DNA from: a virus
IMG/VR virus record: IMGVR_UViG_3300025168_000521
Location: 1-27,448 of that record
DNA: 27,448 bases
Direction: 5' to 3' (one strand)
The position numbers were made by a program, and so were the translations under genes. Positions 3,575 to 20,238 of the stretch are shown piece by piece. The notes beneath the pieces are model-generated. The model searched no databases, was not told the DNA's origin, and worked only from the letters and a program-made list of their open reading frames with translations. Position 1 is the stretch's first letter, and each line of letters starts with the position of its first letter.

Positions 3575-4570
3575 TTAAACTTGTTCTTCAAGCACCATAC
3601 TAATGTCTAAAAATTTTGGATTGCTTTCTTTCATAGTCATTTTTGTTATTCTAACTATTGCCCATTGGTCTGCATTTTGACTATCTGATATATTAACAAC
3701 AACAGGAAGGTGAGAACCTTGAGTATATTTCCAGACACTATTAAGAAAGTTTGGTGAATTTTGATTGTTATATAAACTTGAATTATCTGCACCTAATGAA
3801 TAATCACTTGCAGTATCTTGATTCCAGTCATTATTTGTTATCATTTGGTTTTGACTAAGTATATCAGAATCATTCAACATAGACCAATTAACATTCCACT
3901 TCCTGATACCACTTCTCTGATTACCTCTGTAACTTTTATTTTGTCCTGATTCACTAAAATCATTTTCTAAGTCTGTCATTAATTCCCATGCAGGAAGATT
4001 TCCCCAATTAGATACTTTATCATAATTAAGTGTAGATAATGTCTTACCACTTATTGTTTTTTGCTGTTTTGAACTATAATCAACAGAATAAGATTGACCT
4101 ACATTAACATTTATTGGAGCAGTCCAAGACTTCCCATATAATATTGATCCTATTCTACATAATTGTGAATCATTTATGAAATTAAACATCTTATCATCAT
4201 CATCAGCACCAATATTAGCTGTTGATAAGCTCCAACCATTAAAACCTGGAACATTATTACTGCAATCATTAACAACTCCAATAGTATCAATACCATCTAA
4301 TTTAAGTTGCTGTGTAGTATATTCAAAATTGTGTCCTAAAACCATACAAAAATCAGCTTCAGCATCTAATCTATCTTGATAAGTTATAATATCATCTTCT
4401 CTTACATTTAACTTATGCCATTTAGAAGGCTCTAAAGTAATCATACTTTTTAATGTTTCATCATCTATATTTTCTGTTGATGAAGCTACATTTAATCTTC
4501 CAATAGAATAAGAATATAAAGGAAGTGAAGGATAGAAAGTTAATTTATTTGCTAAACCATAAGAACCCAT
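3575..4570 (-). CDS. Putative minor tail protein, 331 residues
   Basis: I do not recognise a named family. The protein is rich in Ser, Asn, Asp and aromatic residues with alternating beta-strand character and no membrane segment, as in phage tail and receptor-contact proteins. It is the last gene of the tail block: its ATG overlaps the stop of the gene before it (TAATG) and a strong terminator follows. Its first five residues, MGSYG, and the 15 bases encoding them also open the protein at 20238-20753. A virion tail role is inferred from place and composition. Confidence 0.6.
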   Translation of the reverse strand: MGSYGLANKLTFYPSLPLYSYSIGRLNVASSTENIDDETLKSMITLEPSKWHKLNVREDDIITYQDRLDAEADFCMVLGHNFEYTTQQLKLDGIDTIGVVNDCSNNVPGFNGWSLSTANIGADDDDKMFNFINDSQLCRIGSILYGKSWTAPINVNVGQSYSVDYSSKQQKTISGKTLSTLNYDKVSNWGNLPAWELMTDLENDFSESGQNKSYRGNQRSGIRKWNVNWSMLNDSDILSQNQMITNNDWNQDTASDYSLGADNSSLYNNQNSPNFLNSVWKYTQGSHLPVVVNISDSQNADQWAIVRITKMTMKESNPKFLDISMVLEEQV

Positions 4571-5130
4571 TAGTAACCTCTCTTAATTTGTTGCCCTTTT
4601 TTAAGGCTTTTTTTAGTTTTGTTAGTATCTATATCAAAATCAGATAATCTTGTTAGTCCTATATCTTTAGGAGATAATTTTGATAATCTCCTGCCTGTTT
4701 CTTTGGTATTAGTTACAACACCAGTATCAGGATCAGTAATTGATTTAAATTTTACAGCATTTACATAATTATTTGAAGCATCTAATCCATCTTCCCAATT
4801 ACTACTATCTTCATCCCATACACTTTTTGATATATTCCAGGTATCTACTGATGGTTTATCTATATCAAGGTTATGTTTTTCTAAATCTTTATCTACCAAG
4901 TAACCATAAGTTATATTACAATAACCATTGTAGTTAAATAGTTCAGTTAATATTTCTTCTCTTTTGTTAAATTTTACAATAATAATTTTACTATTATTTT
5001 TACTTACTATATAATCTTGTGGTAATAAATTTTCTATAAATAGCTTTCCATTATAATGCAACTCTATTGCTTTATATTCAATATCAGTTTCAAGTTCTAC
5101 TAATCTTTGATTTATTATTAATTTATTCAT
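4570..5130 (-). CDS. Putative tail-associated protein, 186 residues
   Basis: I do not recognise the family. The N-terminal half is strand-rich (LIINQRLVELETDIEYKAIE), the C-terminal half is polar and basic and ends in a Lys-rich tail (TKKSLKKGQQIKRGY). It overlaps the end of the 1291-residue tail gene by eight bases and the next tail gene by one base, so it is translated with them. It may be a small tail-tip or assembly component. That is inferred from the gene order only. Confidence 0.55.
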   Translation of the reverse strand: MNKLIINQRLVELETDIEYKAIELHYNGKLFIENLLPQDYIVSKNNSKIIIVKFNKREEILTELFNYNGYCNITYGYLVDKDLEKHNLDIDKPSVDTWNISKSVWDEDSSNWEDGLDASNNYVNAVKFKSITDPDTGVVTNTKETGRRLSKLSPKDIGLTRLSDFDIDTNKTKKSLKKGQQIKRGY

Positions 5131-8100
5131 TATAAAGTATCATATCTACTAATGCTACTATATCTACTACATTTAAAATCTCATCTTCATTTATATCACC
5201 TAATTCACTATATTGATAATCACCTAAAATATTATTAACAACATCAACTATATCTACTACATTAATAATACCATTCATATCTGTATCACCATAAGGTATT
5301 TCTAATCCTTGTACATATATTGCACCTTCTTCTCTTTGTTCAGGTGGTAAATAATTATAGTTTCTTTGAGTAGGATATGTAGTATTAAATTCTCTTAAAT
5401 TTGCTACATAAGTAGGTGCTTGACCAGGAAACAAAAATCCATGTTGTCCATCTGTGCCTAAATAATGTAGTTGAATTGCTTCTATTTTAATATTATTTAA
5501 ACCAATACTAATTCCTGTTATAAGCCATAAAGGATAAATAGGTTGTCCATTTAGTATTTCAACTTTAGAATAATCTATTCCAAAGGCTTTTGTATTGTTA
5601 ATTACTGGAATATGTATTACATCACCAAGTTTAGCTTTAGCCATTGATAATGGAAGGGTTATATCTATTATAAGATGTTGATTACATTTATTTAATAAAT
5701 CAAAATTAGCAAATTTATTAGCAGTTGCAGTATCAGTATGGTATCTTAATTCTGTCTCTTTATATGAATTTTCTAATTTTTTATCATCTAATTCCTCAAA
5801 GTTGTAGTATTCATAACCATTATATTCAGGAAGCATATTTAAACTTTTAACACTAATTACACCTGTATCAAATGGATAATTATCTTTACCATTATCATAT
5901 CTATAAAAATACTTAGCACTTGTTACTACATCTTCTCTTTTTGTTCTTGTTATTTTATAGTTTATAATATCATTGCTATCTATAATATAATCTATATCAT
6001 CATAAACATATTTTGTTTTAGTTGTAATTAAACCAAAATTACCTTCTGCTGTGAATGTAAATAAACTCTGTGTTTCTTTTGATATATCTTCTAATAATTT
6101 TTTAGCATCTACTGATTCATCTAAACAAAATCCCATTTTCCAATCTGCATATATTTCTCTTGATTCAGTAAGTAAATCAGTATTAAAGAAATTAGGATCA
6201 AGTATATTATCTCCAGTTCCATATCCAAGTTCTCTTGATAATAAGTTAATAAATATATCTGTTGGCTTTTCTACTATTCCATCTGTTTGATATGGTACAT
6301 CTAAATTAACAAAATTTTCAGTTTTTATAGAATCAAAATCTATGTGTGTCCATAGTTTTACCAAATAAGGTGCTTGTGTACCATATATATTAGGATTTTC
6401 ATCCCATAAATATAATTCATTTCTTCTACCTGCATTAGAATTAACTCCTGTTGAACTTACTTCTGAACCTACATCTAAAATATCTTTGTTAATAGTATTT
6501 ATTGTATCATCTAAATATGCAGTTAAATTATTTGTCCAACCATCTATTCCTTCATTAGTATCAGGGTCAAAATCAAATGAATCCCATTCATATAAAAATC
6601 CAGAAACTAAACTATCTGTTGCATCATCATCACTTAAATTGTCTTGATATAAATATTTAAATATTCTTCTTAATAATAACCTTCTGTATGAATCATAAAC
6701 TCTTACTGAATCCAAAAAAGAATCAAGATAGTCATTTCCTGAGCCTTCTTCATAATATCTTGATTCCCCTAATATCCACTTACCATAAGCATCATAATTA
6801 TAAGGTGGATTTCCTTCATTAAAGGCAATATCTATCCATGAAACATAACTTGGAGGAATACCATTAAAATAACTAACAAAAAAACTAAAAGTACTTGTAT
6901 CAATAAACATTACTTTGTCAATAATATTTATATATAACTTTTTCATTAATCCATGAAGAACTAATTGTGTAATTTGTGTATTATTTACTAATACTGAATC
7001 ATCTACATCAGATGTGTTTTTATTATATTCTCCTATAACTGCATAATCACCATTATTGTATGGATACATTCCATAGAGCCATTCATTTAAAAATGTACCA
7101 TTACCTGAAGAAGTATATTCTGTATATTTATTAGCAAAATAATCATCCCATTCATCTATCAATGCTTCAAAATCAGGTAGTTGTCCATCTAATCCTAATG
7201 ATGCTTCTCTTGGAGTTATAATAGCTTCATCTTGTAATGCTGTTAAGTTGTTTATATTTTCTGTTGAAGAATAATCTTTTCTTCCTTTAAGTGAAGCATA
7301 AAATGTTTCAGATTCATAGTCTGTTTTTTCAGTAATATAATTAAATGCTAAACTACTAAATCTGTGTCCTTGTATTCTTGTACCTGCTGGTGTAAATGGT
7401 TTTTCATACCATAAAACTCTATCTACTTCTATTGTATCATCAAAAGATTCTTTTACTATTGTGTGTTCAACATTTGTTAAATCTCTGTTAGTACCTTCTT
7501 TCCAATTTTTTATAATTGCAGCATTTCTAAAATTATGAGCTTGATTTGGATTTAATGGTAAAGTTGCATCACCTACATCTTCAAATTGTTCACCAACTGC
7601 ATTATCATCTAAAATATAATCATTTTGTGTTACACCTGCTGAATTTTGAAAATTACTCTCAAACATTTTTAACCAAAAATCTGGATTAAATGGTTTAAAA
7701 ATAGTACCTACATTTGATGTATTTGTTATTGATGAGTTTAAATTAGGATTACCATTTTCATCTAATTCAGTAAAATGTTCCATACTACCTGTTATTCTTA
7801 TTAGTTTTTTATTTTTATCTAATTTGAATAATATCCATCTTGCTAATTTATCTTCTTGATAATCTATTGGTGGTAAGGTTATAGATTTTTCTTGTCCTTG
7901 TGATGGTTCTCTATACCATTTTTTTTCTAATCCAAAGTTATACCACAAAGCAGAATCATCTTCAGTTTGATTTACATCAGATGCTTGATTATCTAAAGAA
8001 GTTAAAGTGCTTTCTCCTGATAAATCTGAATATGCAGATAATGGAAATGTCCAACCAATACATATTATTGGAGTAGATTCATTTTCTCCTTCCATTTCTG

Positions 8101-8998
8101 GAAATATATATGGTCTATTTTCTAAATATTCTTCTTGAGTAACAAAGTTAGTCTGTGCATTTAATTTATCAAAATCTGTTTCATAAGGGAAATATACATA
8201 ATCATCATCATCTTCTAAGTATATATAAAATGGTGGCATATCCATTGTTTTAGATGTATAAAAATTACCTGATATTGGATTACTATCATGTATCATAGAT
8301 ATAGATTTAAAGTTACTACTTGTTTTAATGTTTGTTTTATAGGTTATAGCAGGACATCTATCAACTTGACCAAATATCATTGGTATAGGTTGTTCATCAT
8401 CTCTATCAATAATATTATCTTTTATTACTTGGTCTAAATCACCAACTTTATTTACTGGTAATTGTTTATCCTGGATAAATTGCTGTGTAAAATCTTCTGC
8501 TTGTATAGATATTGATTTATCTGTTTGGGTAATTCTATTTACTATTCCTGTAAACATAATAGAACAAGAACTATCACCTAAACTTAGAATACCTTTATTT
8601 AAGTCAATATTGCTTGTATTTGGTGTTTTATAGTAAAGTATAACATACTTACCTATAAATGAATTTGTTGGATTAGAACCATCTTTTAAAATATATGATT
8701 CTGAAGAAGTTAATTTCTTAGTTACATCATAATAATCATAAATAGAAAACCTAAATGTATTAATCTTTATTTTTTTATTATCATAATCAACATTATTTTT
8801 AACACCTGATATTTTGCTAATTATTTCTTTTGATTCTATTATGTTATTATCTGTATCTCTTATATGTACTTTTTTATTTGAAAAACAATCTAATACTTCA
8901 AATTTATCATCAACTAAATTAGCTACAACAACTATTGGTACTACATCTATTGCACTACCTTGTGTATCTTCTATAAAATTTTTACTTACTAAAGCCAT
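5123..8998 (-). CDS. Large tail tip protein with C-terminal dockerin-like domain
   Basis: This is the largest gene (1291 residues), directly after the tape measure gene, where long-tailed phages encode their distal tail or tail-tip hub proteins. The first 220 residues (for example IMFTGIVNRITQTDKSISIQ near 150-170) and residues about 990-1190 (ITLPLSMAKAKLGDVIHIPV) are strand-rich and look like hub or tail-tip folds; the middle is long, acidic and aromatic. The last 55 residues (1237-1291) hold two copies of a calcium-loop repeat: GDTDMNGIINVVDIVDVVNN and GDINEDEILNVVDIVALVDM. These fit the type I dockerin pattern, Asp at 1, 3/5 and 12 followed by a helix. The ATG overlaps the stop of the tape measure gene. 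Confidence 0.75.
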   Translation of the reverse strand: MALVSKNFIEDTQGSAIDVVPIVVVANLVDDKFEVLDCFSNKKVHIRDTDNNIIESKEIISKISGVKNNVDYDNKKIKINTFRFSIYDYYDVTKKLTSSESYILKDGSNPTNSFIGKYVILYYKTPNTSNIDLNKGILSLGDSSCSIMFTGIVNRITQTDKSISIQAEDFTQQFIQDKQLPVNKVGDLDQVIKDNIIDRDDEQPIPMIFGQVDRCPAITYKTNIKTSSNFKSISMIHDSNPISGNFYTSKTMDMPPFYIYLEDDDDYVYFPYETDFDKLNAQTNFVTQEEYLENRPYIFPEMEGENESTPIICIGWTFPLSAYSDLSGESTLTSLDNQASDVNQTEDDSALWYNFGLEKKWYREPSQGQEKSITLPPIDYQEDKLARWILFKLDKNKKLIRITGSMEHFTELDENGNPNLNSSITNTSNVGTIFKPFNPDFWLKMFESNFQNSAGVTQNDYILDDNAVGEQFEDVGDATLPLNPNQAHNFRNAAIIKNWKEGTNRDLTNVEHTIVKESFDDTIEVDRVLWYEKPFTPAGTRIQGHRFSSLAFNYITEKTDYESETFYASLKGRKDYSSTENINNLTALQDEAIITPREASLGLDGQLPDFEALIDEWDDYFANKYTEYTSSGNGTFLNEWLYGMYPYNNGDYAVIGEYNKNTSDVDDSVLVNNTQITQLVLHGLMKKLYINIIDKVMFIDTSTFSFFVSYFNGIPPSYVSWIDIAFNEGNPPYNYDAYGKWILGESRYYEEGSGNDYLDSFLDSVRVYDSYRRLLLRRIFKYLYQDNLSDDDATDSLVSGFLYEWDSFDFDPDTNEGIDGWTNNLTAYLDDTINTINKDILDVGSEVSSTGVNSNAGRRNELYLWDENPNIYGTQAPYLVKLWTHIDFDSIKTENFVNLDVPYQTDGIVEKPTDIFINLLSRELGYGTGDNILDPNFFNTDLLTESREIYADWKMGFCLDESVDAKKLLEDISKETQSLFTFTAEGNFGLITTKTKYVYDDIDYIIDSNDIINYKITRTKREDVVTSAKYFYRYDNGKDNYPFDTGVISVKSLNMLPEYNGYEYYNFEELDDKKLENSYKETELRYHTDTATANKFANFDLLNKCNQHLIIDITLPLSMAKAKLGDVIHIPVINNTKAFGIDYSKVEILNGQPIYPLWLITGISIGLNNIKIEAIQLHYLGTDGQHGFLFPGQAPTYVANLREFNTTYPTQRNYNYLPPEQREEGAIYVQGLEIPYGDTDMNGIINVVDIVDVVNNILGDYQYSELGDINEDEILNVVDIVALVDMILYNE

Positions 8999-10803
8999 TA
9001 TACACCTAAATCTCCACCAAGTCTTAAGGCTTCTTTAATCTGAGGCAAAAGCATTGATTCAGTAAATTCTTCTGACATAACATTACCTGAAATATTTAAA
9101 GTAATTCCTGAACCTTGTGGTCCATTGATATTAGGATCACCACCTAATGGTGTAACCTGTACTCTTTCTTGTCCTGATGGATTATCACCTACCATAATTA
9201 ATTCTGGACCTGATGTTGTATAATCTGCTCCTGTTGCAAATCCTGATATATTTTTTGCATAAGACAAACCTGCTGTAAGTCCTGCTGCTCCTGTTATTGC
9301 TCCTAATAGTGGACCACCTAATTTTGTACCCCACTTATATGCATCTTGTCCTATTCCCCAAGCATTTCTAAAGGCTTCTTTTATATCTCCAGATTTTTCT
9401 AATTCATTATGCTTTAGTATTTCCTCTTTTACTTTACCTTTATTTTTCAGCATTACTGCATCAATTTTTTCTTTAAATTTAGATGCTTTTTCCTCTCCCT
9501 TTATTGTGTCATCTACTTTCTTATTTTCTATTTCTGATGTTGATTTAGAAAGTGCTTGTTCCTGTATTCTTAAAGCAATTAATTCTTCTCTTTTTTCTAC
9601 TTCATTATTTAAATTTTCAATATCTTCTTCAAATGTTTTTGTTTTTTCTACATGAAGTTCTTTTTCTCTTTCCAATGCCATTAAATCCAACAATTCTTGT
9701 TCATATTTTCTACTTGTTGATTGGTCAATTTTTTTAGCAATTAAATTTTCTAAACTTACTTTCCCTTCTGTTGCTTCTAATATTCTGGTTTCTAAATCAA
9801 CTCCCTCTTGTACATGAGAATTTTTTTCTATTTGCAAGGCTACTATTTTTTCATTATCTAATTTTATTTTATTAGAATTTATTCCAACCCTTGTAAATAC
9901 ACCTCCCAGTTCCCTTATTGCTGTGCTTTTTTGTAGTCTTACATAAGATAATTCCAGTTGTGTTGTATCTGCCCCTAATTCTTTTAAATTTCTAATAGCA
10001 GTTTGAGCATCATCTTCTGCATTTTTTCTCATAAAATCAGCAACAGCCATTCCTGCAACAACAAACTTAGATGTTAAATTTTCTAATGCAGGTGATAATG
10101 CTTTTCCTAAGTCTGCTGTCATATCAGCAAAGGTTGCACCAAGTTCTTCCATCCTCATATTAGAAGTTTCTAATTCTGGACCCATTGAGTTCACAATATC
10201 TTTTGCTTGTCTCATGGCTTCATTATTAAAAGCAATCTTCTTTTCATTATCATCTAATTCATTTGATGCTTTTCCAACTGATACTGCATAAGTTTCATAA
10301 GCAACCTTAGCATCTACCATAATACCTAAATTATCTAACATCAACTTGGATTGCCTACCCATACCAGTAACAAGTGAATCTAATGCTCTTGTTGTATCTA
10401 CTCCTAATGCAGCCCCTAATCTTTGTGCTGTATCAAACAACTCTGCCATTTCTTCATCTGAACCAACAATAGATAAAGCCATAGCATTGTTTGCTTTAGT
10501 CATTAATTGAATTTCACTTATAGTACCATTAGTTGCTTGTTTTAATTTTGATAATGATGCTGAAGTGAAACCAATTTTTGTTCCCATATTATCAAATGCT
10601 TGTGTTACATTTTTAAGTTTTGAACCTTCTTCTGATAGTTTTTTAAATCCACTAATTAAACCAGAAGCACCAAAGTATGCAGCAGAAGCAATTCCAACCT
10701 TCTTTGCCATTGAAGATAAACTTGAATTAACACCACCTAATTGTTTTTTAGCTTTTTTAGCACCTTTTACAGATACTTCAATTATTTCTCTATTTGTTGC
10801 CAT
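8998..10803 (-). CDS. Tail tape measure protein
   Basis: The 601-residue protein has the composition of a tape measure: an Ala/Gly/Ser/Lys-rich helical N-terminus (GGVNSSLSSMAKKVGIASAA), a domain about 70-250 like phage tail-length tape measure proteins (MALSIVGSDEEMAELFDTAQ, TTRALDSLVTGMGRQSKLML), a long coiled-coil (about 330-480) and a hydrophobic Gly/Ala segment (LGGPLLGAITGAAGLTAGL at about 510-530). It sets tail length and is ejected before the DNA. At 601 residues the tail should be short. AAAGGA lies five bases before the ATG, inside the end of the chaperone GT gene, which overlaps by 14 bases. Confidence 0.88.
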   Translation of the reverse strand: MATNREIIEVSVKGAKKAKKQLGGVNSSLSSMAKKVGIASAAYFGASGLISGFKKLSEEGSKLKNVTQAFDNMGTKIGFTSASLSKLKQATNGTISEIQLMTKANNAMALSIVGSDEEMAELFDTAQRLGAALGVDTTRALDSLVTGMGRQSKLMLDNLGIMVDAKVAYETYAVSVGKASNELDDNEKKIAFNNEAMRQAKDIVNSMGPELETSNMRMEELGATFADMTADLGKALSPALENLTSKFVVAGMAVADFMRKNAEDDAQTAIRNLKELGADTTQLELSYVRLQKSTAIRELGGVFTRVGINSNKIKLDNEKIVALQIEKNSHVQEGVDLETRILEATEGKVSLENLIAKKIDQSTSRKYEQELLDLMALEREKELHVEKTKTFEEDIENLNNEVEKREELIALRIQEQALSKSTSEIENKKVDDTIKGEEKASKFKEKIDAVMLKNKGKVKEEILKHNELEKSGDIKEAFRNAWGIGQDAYKWGTKLGGPLLGAITGAAGLTAGLSYAKNISGFATGADYTTSGPELIMVGDNPSGQERVQVTPLGGDPNINGPQGSGITLNISGNVMSEEFTESMLLPQIKEALRLGGDLGV

Positions 10804-12743: not shown

Positions 12744-13181
12744 TTATCCTAAGTTATTTAAGTGTTCACAAGAAAAATCCCAAGATGTAACTAAGTAATC
12801 CTCATATCCTTCTGCTCTTTCTATGTTAATCTCATTATTTCCACTTCTTAAATTATAAGCAGTAGTAGAATCAGCTAAAGATAGTGTTGGATTATCATGT
12901 ATTAATGCTTCAAATAAACTAATCTGATTTAGTATATAGTCCTGGAATTGTTGATTATCTCTATCTAAGAAATAATAATGTATATCAATGTTAAAAGTTC
13001 TGTGTTCAGAGTGTTTAGTTACATCACCTTGCTCTGAACCTAATGGTGTTAATATAATAAATTGATTTGACTTGTTTGTTTCATCAAAGCCACTTAATAC
13101 TGGACATTTCATTTCAGCCTTAATTTTGCTCTTTAAAGCCACTAAAATTTGTTTCCAAGAGTTGGTATAGGTGATACTCAT
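12744..13181 (-). CDS. Tail terminator/completion protein candidate
   Basis: The 145-residue protein (MSITYTNSWKQILVALKSKI at the start, ending VTSWDFSCEHLNNLG) has the plan of tail terminator proteins: an N-terminal helix, then a central strand pair (TFNIDIHYYFLD), a long helix and a final strand. It lies between the connector gene and the tail tube gene, where long-tailed phages encode proteins that cap the tube and join it to the head. The ATG overlaps the stop of the connector gene. The identification is from order and predicted fold. Confidence 0.5.
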   Translation of the reverse strand: MSITYTNSWKQILVALKSKIKAEMKCPVLSGFDETNKSNQFIILTPLGSEQGDVTKHSEHRTFNIDIHYYFLDRDNQQFQDYILNQISLFEALIHDNPTLSLADSTTAYNLRSGNNEINIERAEGYEDYLVTSWDFSCEHLNNLG

Positions 13182-14392
13182 TATCTTCTCATTTCTATGG
13201 TAGCATTGCTTTTATTTGTTTGTTTTCTATGGCTACTTACAACTTCAACTTCCCAAATATCACCATCAGTAGCTTGTAAACCCATAAATCTCCCTGATAA
13301 TCCACCATATATATGTTGTAATCCACCTGTTATTATTTCAGGTGTGGTAACATCTCCAAATATCTTATCATTAGAAAAATGATGTACTTTAAAAGTGGAC
13401 ACTCCATATGCACCAGTTTCTTCAATTTCTATTTTAAGTAAATCATAAGGTTCACCACTATATTCTCCTGCAAGTTCAACTAAATCCATAGTTCCTGATA
13501 CATTTCTGTATTTAATAGAACCTTTTTTATCATTAGCATCTACTTCAAAAGATAGTTTGAATATACCATCATTTAATTTGTCCAATAAACCTGATTTTTC
13601 AGGGTTAGTTACTAAGCTATAATAATAGTCTGCTTCTTCTGATGCACCTTCTTTTGCTCTAATTAAATTTGCTGATGCAATATAACATACTGACTTAATA
13701 ATAATAGGGTCATATTCTTCTTCTATTGATACACCTGCTGTATCTATATCAGTTTGTTTAATCTTTTGTAAAGGTGTTGAATATCTCATATCAAGATAAT
13801 TGTGTAGTTCTAAAGAAGCATCTACTAATGCTTGATTCATAAATGATGAATGATCTTCTCCTGATTCCATAATATTTTGATTTACATCAGAAGATGAAGA
13901 TATAACAACAAAATCATTATCAGAATCATACAGCCATTGACCATCAGCAGAAGGAAAAAAATGTTGATATACAACAGAATCATCAATGTGAGATTCAGCA
14001 GATGTTCCCAACCTTCCTCTTATACAAGTCAAAGTATTTGTACTTATGCTTGATATATACATTATTTCATCATCTATTTTAATATATGATTCATTGGTAC
14101 AATCAGAACCATTATCAACATCTATTTCTACTTCAGAGCTACTTATAACTTCATTTGCAAGAGTAAGAGCAGTTGTTCCTATTGTTTGTTTGCCTGAACC
14201 TAAATCATTACCATCTCTATAAAAATTATTAGCTAAACCTGAATTAGGACTTAAATATGGTGGTGCTGCATAACCCTCTCCTGATTCTTGTAATGTAAAA
14301 CTGAATAACTGCCTTTTAGAATCAAAATCTGAAACCCTGCCAAAATATTTAGTTAAATCAGATATACTTGCATATTTAAAATTAGTAGCCAT
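13181..14392 (-). CDS. Head-tail connector-like protein with inserted beta module
   Basis: The 403-residue protein starts YASISDLTKYFGRVSDFDSK (from residue 7), like DUF1320/gp36-type connector proteins (YASI-DL--YFG). The helical part typical of them (MNQALVDASLELHNYLDMRY, then KSVCYIASANLIRAKEGASE) appears only after residue 180. Between these lies a strand-rich module (about 70-150) with the signature NTLTCIRGRLGTSAESHIDD, also present in the next upstream gene. The C-terminal third is another strand-rich domain. AGGAG lies four bases before the ATG. It should sit at the portal-tail junction; the extra module may be displayed on the outside. Confidence 0.6.
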   Translation of the reverse strand: MATNFKYASISDLTKYFGRVSDFDSKRQLFSFTLQESGEGYAAPPYLSPNSGLANNFYRDGNDLGSGKQTIGTTALTLANEVISSSEVEIDVDNGSDCTNESYIKIDDEIMYISSISTNTLTCIRGRLGTSAESHIDDSVVYQHFFPSADGQWLYDSDNDFVVISSSSDVNQNIMESGEDHSSFMNQALVDASLELHNYLDMRYSTPLQKIKQTDIDTAGVSIEEEYDPIIIKSVCYIASANLIRAKEGASEEADYYYSLVTNPEKSGLLDKLNDGIFKLSFEVDANDKKGSIKYRNVSGTMDLVELAGEYSGEPYDLLKIEIEETGAYGVSTFKVHHFSNDKIFGDVTTPEIITGGLQHIYGGLSGRFMGLQATDGDIWEVEVVSSHRKQTNKSNATIEMRR

Positions 14393-14399
14393 TAATCTC

Positions 14400-16091
14400 C
14401 TATCCTAAAATTATTGCTTTGATTGAAGAATTTTTAATTCTATTAACACTTCTTCCTTTTATTTCTTGTATAGTATTATATCCTGCTGAAGTAAATGATG
14501 AACCACCTGAATGTGCAGATAGTGAAGCATAAGTATATGAAAATTCTGCATCTGGTAAACTTGCTACCTGCCAATGATGATGTCCTTTATCATAGTCAAT
14601 TTTACCAACTATTCTATCCATATATAAAAGATTACCATTACCATCATCAACTATATATGCTTTTTCATTTAATTCCTCTACACCAGTAACAGGGTTTTGT
14701 ATTGTTTCTTGTGGTTGTGTTGCTATAGGTCCAAAACAAATTGTATCTGTTGTTCCACCACCAACTATTGTACCAAGTAAATCAGGAACACTACTTGCTA
14801 ATGCAGGAAATGCTCCAACACCAAATGGTGTAGTTCCTGATACATTTGCAATACCAACTCTTGTTAAGCTGTTATTACTCATTGATTGTACTCTAATATC
14901 ACCATTGTGTATAAATATATTAACTTTCTTATTTCTTAATCCTGATGATGTAGTATAATATTCTGTATCTAATACTGCTTGTATTTTAGGTAATACTGCA
15001 TTTGATGAACCATTAAAAGTTGTATCTGAAGCATCTGTTGTAAATGCTATTGCTTCTTCTGTTGTTGTTCCATCTATTCCATTTGCATGATATTCATCTA
15101 CTACAATATGAAAAGTATAAGCAGTTGAAGCAGCTAAACCTGTTTTTGTATTAGCTTTAATACCAGTTAATCCCCAATCTAAATATCCACCTTCTGTGAA
15201 GAATGGACCAATATTAACTGAACCTGGTACTAATCCTTCAGCTACTTTAGTTGCAGTTCTGGCTTTACCAAAGAAAGAACCTCTTGATTTAAAAGCACCT
15301 GATTTTGAACTAATACACAAGGCTGTATCAAAGGCTAAATGTTCATTACCAAAGAAATAATATAAAGGTGCATCATCTGCTATTGCAACAGCAGTTGAAC
15401 CAAGCAACCCTCTTTTAATAGTTAAATTTTGCCCTGATATATTCAATACTTCAAGAACTTCAGTTCCAGCAACTATTAAATCACCTTCTTTAAACCAATC
15501 ACCATCATCTACAACCATAAGTGTATCTGTAATTGCCATAGCATCACCATCATTAACAAGTACAGCAGTACCTGCTCCATAATTAGCACCATCAGGAAGT
15601 TTAACAGCTACAAACAATTCACCACTATTTAATGCAGAAGGTAAATCCCCTGAACCTCTACCTGAAGCATGATAACCTGCTGATTCAAAAGCAGCACCAC
15701 CTGCATAAGCATAAGCTAAAACTCTATTATTAGGCAAAGAAATAAACTTTCCACCAGGCAATAAGAAACTCCAACTTCTAACACTTGTAGCTGAACCTGG
15801 ACCTATATCAACTGAATTAGCTTCATCAGCAGCAGTTCCTGCTTTCCATTCCATTACACTAATAAGTATTTCAGAGCATACATTACTTTTATTTATTATA
15901 AGAATCTGTTTAGCAGATTGTAATGTGCTATTACCTTTTGAAGCACTACTTGTCATTATATTTATAAAAGCATCTCCATAATCTAATTCCTGATCAACTG
16001 AAAATAATTCTTTGTAATCACCTGAAACAATACAAGAATAGTCATTCTCTGCTTTAAGTGTTATCTCTGTTGTAAATTTTTTAGTAGCCAT
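14400..16091 (-). CDS. Structural protein, fibre- or tail-associated, 563 residues
   Basis: The protein is rich in Gly, Ala, Ser and Thr with repeating beta strands and no membrane segment. Residues about 180-260 carry the module seen in the connector protein: DWFKEGDLIVAGTEVLEVLN followed by NLTIKRGLLGSTAVAIADDA. The rest does not match a family I know. It has a good ribosome binding site (AAGGAG, four bases before the ATG) and lies in a run of three large genes between the lysis region and the connector gene. A virion surface or fibre role is inferred from composition and place. Confidence 0.6.
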   Translation of the reverse strand: MATKKFTTEITLKAENDYSCIVSGDYKELFSVDQELDYGDAFINIMTSSASKGNSTLQSAKQILIINKSNVCSEILISVMEWKAGTAADEANSVDIGPGSATSVRSWSFLLPGGKFISLPNNRVLAYAYAGGAAFESAGYHASGRGSGDLPSALNSGELFVAVKLPDGANYGAGTAVLVNDGDAMAITDTLMVVDDGDWFKEGDLIVAGTEVLEVLNISGQNLTIKRGLLGSTAVAIADDAPLYYFFGNEHLAFDTALCISSKSGAFKSRGSFFGKARTATKVAEGLVPGSVNIGPFFTEGGYLDWGLTGIKANTKTGLAASTAYTFHIVVDEYHANGIDGTTTEEAIAFTTDASDTTFNGSSNAVLPKIQAVLDTEYYTTSSGLRNKKVNIFIHNGDIRVQSMSNNSLTRVGIANVSGTTPFGVGAFPALASSVPDLLGTIVGGGTTDTICFGPIATQPQETIQNPVTGVEELNEKAYIVDDGNGNLLYMDRIVGKIDYDKGHHHWQVASLPDAEFSYTYASLSAHSGGSSFTSAGYNTIQEIKGRSVNRIKNSSIKAIILG

Positions 16092-16099
16092 TTATCTCC

Positions 16100-16879
16100 T
16101 TAGCCTGTAATGTGATATTTAATATTTAATTGACAACTTATATCTGATGTGTCTGTTTCATTTTCTATAAAAGCTATTAATACTTTACCTGATGATACAC
16201 TTGCACTATCTATTGCAAGAACATCTGTTTTTAATGATGTTGTTGTTGCTGCTAAAACTGAACCAATATGTGCTATAAGTGTTCCATTTGATAAATCACC
16301 AGTAGGTGTATGTAAATCATAACTATAAACATGAAAATTTAAATTTACTGAACCATCTGCTCTTGCTATTACTCTTATTGCATCAATAGATATATTATCC
16401 ATAACATACCAATATGTAGGAAGTCCATCTATACTTCTTGAAACATGAGTAGATACATCTAAAGTTGTTGCAGGATCAGCACCTGTTCCAAATCCAGTAT
16501 GTCCTGCATAATCAGAACCACTATCTGAAAACATCATATTGTTAGAAATCAAAGCATAGTGTTGTCCTGCTGATGGACTAAAATCATATATTCCAAATTC
16601 TTTATACATTGTATTCACATGGACACCATTAGCCTTAACAATACTATTTGTAGTATCAACTAATAACTTACTTGTTCCACTTGCATTTTGTACATCTAAA
16701 GCAGCAGTATTATCTGTTAATGATTTTACTTGTAATGCTCTATCTGAAACACTTAAAGAACTACTTGAACCATCTCCAGTCTTTACATTAGTAACTGATG
16801 TTGAAATACCATTATTAGAATTACCTACTTGGAGTATATCTTTATAAGTTGCATTTGGTGCTTTACCTGTAAAACTCAT
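16100..16879 (-). CDS. Putative tail fibre protein, 259 residues
   Basis: The N-terminus (TYKDILQVGNSNNGISTSVT, then GDGSSSSLSVSDRALQVKSL) is a short repeating beta pattern like the shaft of phage tail fibres and fibre-like minor proteins. The C-terminal part (about 90-259) is a compact strand-rich domain with aromatic residues, as in receptor-binding heads. AAAGG lies nine bases before the ATG. The 61-base gap upstream holds an AT-rich hairpin and a candidate regulatory box. Fibre proteins bind host surface sugars or proteins; the receptor cannot be inferred. Confidence 0.6.
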   Translation of the reverse strand: MSFTGKAPNATYKDILQVGNSNNGISTSVTNVKTGDGSSSSLSVSDRALQVKSLTDNTAALDVQNASGTSKLLVDTTNSIVKANGVHVNTMYKEFGIYDFSPSAGQHYALISNNMMFSDSGSDYAGHTGFGTGADPATTLDVSTHVSRSIDGLPTYWYVMDNISIDAIRVIARADGSVNLNFHVYSYDLHTPTGDLSNGTLIAHIGSVLAATTTSLKTDVLAIDSASVSSGKVLIAFIENETDTSDISCQLNIKYHITG

Positions 16880-18155: not shown

Positions 18156-18444
18156 TTCTTTCTTGCATCCTCATGAATTTGTCTTTTAATCCATTACCAC
18201 TTAGTGCTGCAATAATCTCTACTAATGTTTTAAAACTATTTTCTAAACCTTTTTGTTCTAACTGCATTTTCTTTTGTTGATCTATTAACTTAACAATTAT
18301 ACCTTCAACTCTACCAAATGATTCTCTTAATTCTTTTTGTAACTCATTCTGGATAAAATTATTTTGTTTCCATATATATACACCAAAAGCAAATGCTACA
18401 ACTACTGGTATTCCATATTGTTCTAATATTATTAACCAATCCAT
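18136..18444 (-). CDS. Holin-like membrane protein with cytoplasmic coiled coil
   Basis: The 102-residue protein has one N-terminal membrane segment (IPVVVAFAFGVYIWKQN, about 12-28) followed by a long charged coiled coil (NELQKELRESFGRVEGIIVK on). This plan, one span plus a helical tail, occurs in small holin-like proteins near endolysin genes. It overlaps the metallophosphoesterase stop by one base (TAATG). The lysis role comes from the position four genes after the lysozyme. A tail-associated membrane contact protein is an alternative. Confidence 0.5.
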   Translation of the reverse strand: MDWLIILEQYGIPVVVAFAFGVYIWKQNNFIQNELQKELRESFGRVEGIIVKLIDQQKKMQLEQKGLENSFKTLVEIIAALSGNGLKDKFMRMQERNENKKY

Positions 18445-19640
18445 TATACCACCACCTTAAATATAGTTGTTCCTGAACTTATCTTATCATGGCTCTTTGC
18501 ATTGTATGCTTCTAAAGATTTATCTATTTTATACATATCATCATCATAGTTTTGTAAGTCTATTTTAATACCATCTCTATTTCCATTCTCATAAAAAATA
18601 TAACAATTCTGTGATGCTCTACCTGCTAAGTTTAAAGCCTTCTCTGAGTAGTCATTTGCTCCACACATAGAACTGGACCTACCAAAGTTATCTCCAACTC
18701 TTGCAGAATGTATGTGTCCAAATATAACATAATCAACATCTATTCCTCTTTGTTTATATCTTCCCATAATCTGAATTACACTCTTATCTAATCCACCCTT
18801 AATAGCACCATTACCATGCAATATCAGTAAGTTTTGTCCTGCTACCTCAACTACTACTTCAGTAGGATCACCATCAATAAAATTAATATTACTACTCTTA
18901 AATAAATACCTTAATGTTTGGAAGATAGTATAATCATAATTATCAGAAGCTAACATTGTACTCCATCCCCAGTTATCCTTAACTCTTGATTCATTTCCAG
19001 TAACTGATGCAACTGATACATTAAAATGTTCATTTAGTTCCAGAATTACTTGTTGGAATATATCTACTGCTAAGAATGTAGCTTTAGTTCTATTAGTAGC
19101 CATAGATAGTAGCTCATCTAATCTTCTATCACTATTTAGTAAATCACCTGATTGTACAAGCAATACATTTGTTATAGATTGTGATTTAAAGTACATAATA
19201 GCCCTTTTAACAAAGTATTTACATCTTTTGGATGCAATAGTAAAGTCATACTTATTATGCTCTAAATCAATCAATTCATTCATATGAACATCTGAAAATT
19301 GAATTACACCAACAGCCTTAGTTGTTTGCTTGTGTGATTTAGTAAGTGTATTTAATTTATATTTGTCAAAAATCTCTTTCAGGTGCTTAGTATATTCTGC
19401 TATTGCATTTTCTACTCTTGCATATTCCCTGAAAGTCTTTCTTTCTATTCTATTTAAATCTTGGATTGATTGCTTTTGTTTAGCAAGTCTTACATTGGAT
19501 TGAATAATTTCTACATCATCAGGTTGAAGTGGATGTATGGTTTTATAATAACATTTTTTGCAACCATACCTTTGTCTATCTTTATCCCATCCCTCTTTTG
19601 TAAGCTGAGATGAGAAGCAGTTAGGACAAACTAAATCCAT
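18444..19640 (-). CDS. Zinc-ribbon metallophosphoesterase
   Basis: The 398-residue protein starts with a zinc ribbon (Cys5, Cys8, Cys27, Cys30: CPNC and CKKC), a helical linker (about 40-105), then a calcineurin-like phosphoesterase domain with all metal-binding motifs in order: FSDVH (Asp117, His119), SGD (Asp166), TGNE (Asn216), LHGNG (about 275) and FGHIHS (about 305). The third motif reads GNE where GNH is usual. Enzymes of this class cleave phosphodiesters or phosphomonoesters, often in DNA, RNA or nucleotides. AAGGA lies seven bases before the ATG. It sits between an XhlA-like gene and a holin-like gene, far from the replication genes, so it may act late. Confidence 0.85.
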   Translation of the reverse strand: MDLVCPNCFSSQLTKEGWDKDRQRYGCKKCYYKTIHPLQPDDVEIIQSNVRLAKQKQSIQDLNRIERKTFREYARVENAIAEYTKHLKEIFDKYKLNTLTKSHKQTTKAVGVIQFSDVHMNELIDLEHNKYDFTIASKRCKYFVKRAIMYFKSQSITNVLLVQSGDLLNSDRRLDELLSMATNRTKATFLAVDIFQQVILELNEHFNVSVASVTGNESRVKDNWGWSTMLASDNYDYTIFQTLRYLFKSSNINFIDGDPTEVVVEVAGQNLLILHGNGAIKGGLDKSVIQIMGRYKQRGIDVDYVIFGHIHSARVGDNFGRSSSMCGANDYSEKALNLAGRASQNCYIFYENGNRDGIKIDLQNYDDDMYKIDKSLEAYNAKSHDKISSGTTIFKVVV

Positions 19641-19643
19641 ATA

Positions 19644-19841
19644 TTATTCCTTTATAATATAACCCAAGATACAAGAGACTATAAAAGTAATACCTGACCC
19701 AATCCCTTTAATCCAAGATAGTGTAACCTCATTATTCCTTACTCTACCATTTAATTTTTGTAGATGATTAAAATTAGCATCAACTTTGTCCTTGATGTAT
19801 TCCAGGTGTGTCAATACTAATTCTGTGTCTTGTTTATTCAT
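19644..19841 (-). CDS. XhlA-like small membrane protein (lysis-associated)
   Basis: The 65-residue protein has an N-terminal coiled-coil stretch (LTHLEYIKDKVDANFNHLQK), then a C-terminal membrane segment (ITFIVSCILGYIIKE, about 51-65). This order, soluble helix then membrane anchor, matches XhlA-type proteins that work with holins and endolysins. The start overlaps the end of the lysozyme gene by eight bases, which supports a shared job. An Rz-like spanin is less likely: there is no lipobox or periplasmic tail. Confidence 0.6.
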   Translation of the reverse strand: MNKQDTELVLTHLEYIKDKVDANFNHLQKLNGRVRNNEVTLSWIKGIGSGITFIVSCILGYIIKE

Positions 19842-20238
19842 CTATCTCTGATAATGTTTTACTTAATTCTTTTGCTCTATTAGGAGTTTGTTTTGCCCAT
19901 AAACTATCAAGCATCTCTATTGCTCCTGCTCTGTATTTACAATTTTCTATATAATGTAGTGTTTTAATAAAGTCAAATAGTTTGTTACCAAGCTGATAAT
20001 ACATATTCTGAAGTATGTTCTTTACTAATTGTGGTTGATCCTTGTACCATTGAAGTTTGTTTTGTAATACTCTTTCATTAGATATTAATCTTCTTTGTAG
20101 TATTGTATCACATACATCTTCATCTAATTCTAAAGCAGATACAAGGAATCCTATTCCTATTGTGTCATATCCAAGTGTGTCTTTGTACACCTTCTTAGAA
20201 TAACCTTCATGTCTTTTAATTTCTTCTATTAAAGACAT
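19834..20238 (-). CDS. T4-type lysozyme (endolysin)
   Basis: The 134-residue protein has the catalytic triad of the glycoside hydrolase 24 family at the same residue numbers as T4 lysozyme: Glu11 (RHEGYS), Asp20 (VYKDTLGY) and Thr26 (DTIGIG). The C-terminus shares QTPNRAKELSKTL with the family's QTPNRAK motif. It cuts peptidoglycan between MurNAc and GlcNAc for host lysis. It has no signal peptide, so it needs a holin. It is about 30 residues shorter than T4 lysozyme. Start and stop overlap the neighbouring genes. It implies a host with peptidoglycan. Confidence 0.9.
   Translation of the reverse strand: MSLIEEIKRHEGYSKKVYKDTLGYDTIGIGFLVSALELDEDVCDTILQRRLISNERVLQNKLQWYKDQPQLVKNILQNMYYQLGNKLFDFIKTLHYIENCKYRAGAIEMLDSLWAKQTPNRAKELSKTLSEIDE

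Follow-up and report, generated by a model that had tools for sequence, protein, structure and literature searches.

Dockerins are best known from the cellulose-digesting complexes of bacteria, the known ones mostly bind other proteins, and cohesin-dockerin pairs are among the strongest protein contacts known. Outside cellulosomes, most dockerins have, to our knowledge, no known role. The cellulosomal type I dockerins, for example those of C. thermocellum Xyn10B (1ohz/2ccl) and of A. cellulolyticus DocCel5 (5nrm) and ScaB (4uyq), are built of two D-x-[DN]-x-[DN]-G-x-x-N-x-x-D loops with a helix after each, span about 57 aa at a C-terminus, and sit on secreted enzymes. Dockerin pairs are also borne by phages: besides other gut phages, Ruminococcus phage NatCom_28274 encodes one in XTK83925, a separate, host-like and apparently secreted protein (apparent signal peptide) that is no tail protein. 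When phage GenBank records were searched with a hand-made consensus query, such pairs were found in 7 gut records only; the module of one hub-family member, used as the query, matched none, probably an effect of the low-complexity filter of BLAST. In the NatCom_28274 records (L042/L075, positions 538-1626), the dockerin is C-terminal and the protein begins with an apparent signal peptide; it is possibly a cargo that the phage brings to a cellulosome or amylosome of its host.

The tail tips of several other phages end differently. In T5, the C-terminus of pb3 leaves hub domain IV (hdIV) through a long linker and starts the central fibre, and the closed tip is held stable by this extension of the C-terminus (PMC10038345). 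The C-terminal part of lambda gpJ is the central fibre with its receptor-binding domain (PMC11101478). In phage LSH1, a small antireceptor domain directly follows hub domain IV (PMC13243795).

Here we describe a tail-tip hub in which a dockerin takes this place. It resembles the hubs of lambda (gpJ), T5 (pb3), Chi and T1 in its predicted C-terminal hub fold, in the position of its gene after the tape measure gene, and in the linker leaving the last hub domain where the central fibre begins. Unlike them, it has no FNIII domain or fibre and its C-terminal end is a 57-aa dockerin module; moreover, it has no sequence-level match to them. With gp25 of LSH1, a minimal siphoviral hub, it shares a small domain attached directly after hub domain IV, but that of gp25 is an S16-type antireceptor whereas that of the present hub is a dockerin. 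Where gpJ/pb3-type hubs carry a central fibre or an antireceptor, this one has the dockerin in its stead. Hub and dockerin are each of a known kind; what is new, as far as could be checked, is their combination, not the kind of system. The family consists of small uncultured tailed viruses that bear a dockerin where other phages have the part that touches the host. In our reading, which we put slightly above even (roughly 55%), the module is a calcium-folded protein-docking plug at the tip of a siphovirus-like tail hub, gripping one protein partner. A conserved dockerin at a phage tail tip gives a non-cellulosomal dockerin a testable role, and the partner of the module could lead to the host of this uncultured phage group.

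The hub gene and its surroundings

The window, i.e., the whole stretch of DNA analysed here, is one IMG/VR virus record spanning 27,448 bases. Its genes read as those of a small, siphovirus-like phage. Nearly every gene lies on the minus strand, and the gene content includes a terminase, head proteins, a tape measure protein, the 1291-aa protein, two more proteins and an Erf/Rad52-type annealing protein. The features of the tail-tip region are as follows.

8998..10803, minus strand: tape measure protein gene, directly upstream of the hub gene (phrog_3779, E 5e-12)
5123..8998, minus strand: tail-tip hub gene, an ORF of 1291 aa, gpJ/pb3-like by Foldseek of aa 885-1291 and by its place next to the tape measure gene, with a C-terminal dockerin-fold module
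6359..8101, minus strand: variable central region of the hub protein, about aa 300-880 (pN/pS 0.65, raised dS among close relatives)
5435..6346, minus strand: C-terminal hub domains, aa 885-1188, the best conserved part (pN/pS 0.18)
4570..5130, minus strand: 186-aa protein, whose start overlaps the hub stop and whose gene adjoins the hub gene in nearly all relatives; candidate tail-tip partner
3575..4570, minus strand: 331-aa protein, the next kept neighbour, adjoining the 186-aa gene; candidate tail-tip protein, possibly the distal tail protein

Scans of the whole hub protein against Pfam and PHROG matched no family model. A structure model of its C-terminal 407 aa (aa 885-1291, pLDDT 80) was matched by Foldseek to the tail tips of Chi, T1, lambda, JBD30, DT57C and T5 (E 2e-10 to 4e-7). 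Because this predicted fold matches tail tips and the gene comes right after that of the tape measure protein, an order found in every relative covering that stretch, the 1291-aa protein is, on the modelled structure, a hub of the gpJ/pb3 type. The last hub domain ends in HYLGTDGxHGF (aa 1178-1188), after which the linker and then the dockerin module end the chain. The first-pass annotation had put a dockerin at the tip of a phage tail, and this placing held: the module lies C-terminal to the hub domains, where gpJ and pb3 begin their central fibres. No FNIII domain or central fibre follows the hub domains; the chain closes with linker and dockerin or, in one clade, directly behind the hub.

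Within one close clade, pN/pS was 0.18 in the C-terminal hub, 0.34 at the N-terminus and 0.65 in the middle. For the pairs L008/L013 and L010/L015, dS was about 0.6 in the hub middle versus about 0.2 in its flanks; a middle so much more divergent than the ends suggests exchange of a receptor-contact insertion, and this region is a candidate receptor-contact region.

Profile searches of the PDB with the hub-neighbour proteins gave no match of note, and none at all for the 331-aa protein. Some other genes deserve mention. The protein at 13181-14392 has 403 aa in the window versus 326-332 aa in 13 relatives, its extra residues (about 73-148) match families of tail fibres (phrog_11439), and the neighbouring 563-aa protein of relatives contains a stretch like them. 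The protein at 14400-16091 is fibre-like as well. A conserved 259-aa protein (16100-16879) contains, in relatives too, the fibre-like sequence LDVxNASGTxKFxVDTTNNxVKALG; it is possibly a beta-rich virion protein and possibly a partner of the module. In two related genomes, the contig both starts and ends inside the hub gene, whose halves lie at opposite ends (L038/L096 of G031; L034/L051 of G029); these genomes, of about 30-33 kb, are either circular or circularly permuted.

A dockerin fold at the C-terminus of the hub

The sequence after the last hub domain is divided as follows.

5297..5434, minus strand: linker between hub and dockerin, aa 1189-1234, with a conserved NYNY/NWNYNP...EIPY motif; by position the counterpart of the T5 hdIV-FNIII linker
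5126..5290, minus strand: dockerin-fold module, last 55 codons (profiles, predicted fold, loop ligands)
5252..5287, minus strand: calcium loop 1, DTDMNGIINVVD, aa 1238-1249, 5/5 ligand positions
5228..5260, minus strand: helix 1, aa 1247-1257 (AF2 model, conservation)
5162..5197, minus strand: calcium loop 2, DINEDEILNVVD, aa 1268-1279, 5/5 ligand positions in the window
5132..5170, minus strand: helix 2, aa 1277-1289 (AF2 model)

The ORF 5123-8998 on the minus strand indeed encodes a tail protein of 1291 residues whose last 55 codons, exactly 5126-5290, contain the two repeats that had been reported from the sequence alone. They read GDTDMNGIINVVDIVDVVNNILG-DYQYSEL-GDINEDEILNVVDIVALVDMILYNE, and both calcium-loop/helix repeats are present, DTDMNGIINVVD with its helix and DINEDEILNVVD with its helix. 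At all five calcium-ligand positions (1, 3, 5, 9 and 12) both repeats have acceptable side chains.

Taken alone, the window sequence reached 8.7 bits with Pfam Dockerin_1, below the cut-off of 22.9, and its best PDB match was a dockerin with E 0.043. Because these matches were weak, relatives were needed to settle the identity of the module. Dockerin_1 matched 15 of 20 family members, and its cut-off was passed in 6 of 32 related records, always within the hub ORF. The family profile ranked solved dockerins first (1ohz, E 1.6e-5). A leave-one-out profile, built from the relatives without the window, gave the window ORF 44.9 bits (E 2e-13), compared with 4.1 bits for the runner-up among 323 six-frame ORFs; shuffling the 57 aa 20,000 times gave 16.5 bits at most. 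Thus the profile search for a dockerin, weak on the window alone, became clear once relatives were included.

The predicted structure agrees. In the AF2 model of the module (pLDDT 78), a loop, a helix (13-23), a second loop and a second helix (43-55) follow one another, so that the F-hand loops, whose absence from a structure would have spoken against the original proposal, are seen in the model. Its first 30 PDB matches by Foldseek were all dockerins, with TM mostly 0.75-0.84; the E-values were weak (0.03 upward) because a 57-aa query is short, though the ranking was unanimous. The dockerin fold of the module is therefore well supported at the level of prediction. That the module is instead a chance or EF-hand-like acidic repeat is very improbable: the window alone is under the Pfam cut-off and EF-hand models match some family members as well, but the leave-one-out score, the shuffles, the PDB profile ranking and the fold search all point to dockerins, and on these we rejected it in silico.

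The module is like the cellulosomal type I dockerins in its predicted fold, in the two loops each with a helix, in its size and in its C-terminal position, and differs from them in sitting on a phage tail hub, in a second loop that is often degenerate across the family, in the lack of any cohesin found in the viral genomes, and in having aliphatic V/I and N for the clostridial recognition residues. In repeat 1, position 10 is mostly V/I, position 17 nearly always V/I and position 18 usually N. The window has V-V at positions 10-11 and V-N at 17-18, and the S-T/K-R of C. thermocellum occurs in no member. Considering that V10, V11, V14, V17 and N18 of helix 1 make up the face that meets the cohesin in known dockerins, the surface has been kept, but as an aliphatic and not a clostridial one. 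Consequently, the early assignment to the type I pattern stands for the loop-helix arrangement and the fold and fails for the recognition residues, which are replaced by V10, V17 and N18.

Conservation and loss of the module

Single queries with the hub or the module against viral contigs gave nothing new. With the 563-aa neighbour protein as query, seven viral loci were obtained, four of them with the same large protein, and an alignment of these then retrieved 35 and subsequently 38 loci. Among 30 orthologs from IMG/VR with a readable C-terminus, 25 (all distinct, window included) had the module at the C-terminus of the hub, while five hubs ended before it. Against the concern that in related phages this tail might be only a random extension, 25 of 30 share the module at the same place. 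Loop 1 retained all five calcium ligands in 24 of the 25 modules, loop 2 in 8 of 25, among them the window, and the hydrophobic pattern of helix 2 was maintained.

In a phylogeny of the hub domains with the module excluded, its absence was a single change (SH-aLRT 99) leading to L002, L003, L028 and L030, whose nearest relative, L025, has a degenerate module. The fifth hub without a module, L065, was not in the tree. Loss of the module takes the linker too, so that the protein ends at HGFV; this linker is about 46 residues long and predicted with fair confidence. No gene family among the relatives was absent exactly where the module was absent. In the close clade mentioned above, pN/pS of the module was 0.76, a value from few sites, so that either the constraint on the module is looser than that on the hub or the demands on it change.

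These data bear on whether the module does anything at all. It might be a domain captured from bacteria, still able to fold but of little use and now in decay; this would fit the incomplete loop 2 ligands of 17 of 25 members, the degenerate L025, the clade without a module and the pN/pS of 0.76 in close relatives. A neutral tail should, on the other hand, often be lost or scrambled, while the tree requires one loss. Over deep divergence, loop 1 ligands stayed intact in 24 of 25 members and the helices kept their hydrophobic pattern; we consider such a leftover quite improbable.

Possible partners and role of the module

In the docking reading, the hub, trimeric in known relatives and by analogy expected to be so here, would close the tail tip with the dockerin module at its C-terminus. 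Cytoplasmic calcium is low and extracellular calcium is higher, and the module would fold on calcium in a virion that has left its host; given this contrast, we hypothesize that it could fold only after release. Calcium binding is suggested by the intact loop 1. The exposed aliphatic face of the module would then grip one protein partner, either a protein of the host cell surface or another tip or fibre protein of the phage, and the contact would aid attachment or opening of the tip. Protein docking is suggested by this kept face together with the dockerin fold: the face persists across hubs only about 28-44% identical, which argues for a partner. On the same footing, the module may be proposed to serve in attachment or to hold or open the tip. 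Besides the negative cohesin searches described next, two findings count against docking: the module is dispensable in one clade with no other gene gone with it, and in close relatives its evolution outpaces that of the hub (pN/pS 0.76 versus 0.18, few sites).

A search of 32 related viral records for a cohesin, as a possible partner, turned up none. A profile of 19 bacterial cohesins was also compared by hhalign with every protein family of the related phages; the best probability was 0.7%, while a split-cohesin control gave 98%. Several members of the 259-aa protein family headed the sub-threshold list of the cohesin profile (E 0.07-0.4), which is not significant. The search for a cohesin within the phage genome thus came out negative, by both routes. 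As to hosts, searches of 84,980 species genomes of bacteria and archaea and of 50,697 phage GenBank records yielded no hub relative, and the module matched only one gut Lachnospiraceae MAG among the species genomes, which is uninformative on the host. The suggestion that a type I dockerin here binds a cohesin has therefore lost ground, with no cohesin found in the phages and the type I recognition residues replaced.

A narrower version of it has the phage imitate secreted dockerin proteins and dock to a protein of the host surface that bears a cohesin. The dockerin-like fold with its F-hand loops and the location at the distal tip, the place of antireceptors, speak for this, and a part facing the host could well evolve faster than the hub; but the type I recognition residues are absent, host range is more readily assigned to the variable hub middle and the fibre-like genes, and we regard genuine docking to a host cohesin as unlikely. 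The broad scenario in which, in a widespread group of small tailed phages, a dockerin plugging into a cohesin-like protein of the host surface took over from a receptor-binding fibre at the hub end, so that infection would use calcium-gated cohesin-dockerin adhesion, is in our judgment rather unlikely.

The module might also work without any outside partner. As an intrinsic cap or latch, the three modules of a hub trimer would pack together or on the hub and keep the tip closed at high calcium, and a trigger at the cell surface would free them and pull the linker, in the manner of the T5 hdIV-FNIII linker. The conserved and fairly confidently predicted linker, lost as one unit with the dockerin, is consistent with this, as are the failure to find a partner gene or cohesin in related phages, the stabilisation of the closed T5 tip by its C-terminal extension (PMC10038345), and the sufficiency of loop 1 and two helices in many members. 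One clade, however, lives without linker and module and with no visible compensation, and most known dockerins bind other proteins. We hold such a latch to be a tentative possibility, and docking to one protein partner is still the reading that we prefer.

Dockerins and dockerin-like annotations in other phages

No description of a dockerin on a phage tail hub was found in the open-licence literature searched. Two apparent precedents were discarded: the 'dockerin' of E. coli phage HSE2 is a match to a carbohydrate-binding module (PDB 2wz8), and for VvAW1 gene 40 the word stems from a BLAST remark about a gene that was considered in connection with the attachment site. Among BFVD entries, the nine that match the module best are unnamed proteins, seven of them at 926-1374 aa; by length and rank they are probably members of the hub family described here. 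The sequences are thus already public, and the dockerin reading is new as far as could be checked.

Three further genes of the window were noticed. A metallophosphoesterase-type exonuclease (18444-19640; 70-73% identity with relatives) and the Erf/Rad52-type annealing protein (2204-2938) form a recombination pair carried by a 27-kb genome. A lysozyme-like protein of 134 aa (19834-20238) matches endolysin and tail-lysozyme families and is the sole candidate noticed for a lysis or cell-wall enzyme. Finally, two named BFVD entries match the module and are possible independent cases: A0A8S5M688 ('Dockerin type 1', Myoviridae sp. ctCL221) and, weakly, A0A8S5P366 ('Tail protein', Siphoviridae sp. 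ctQtc11).
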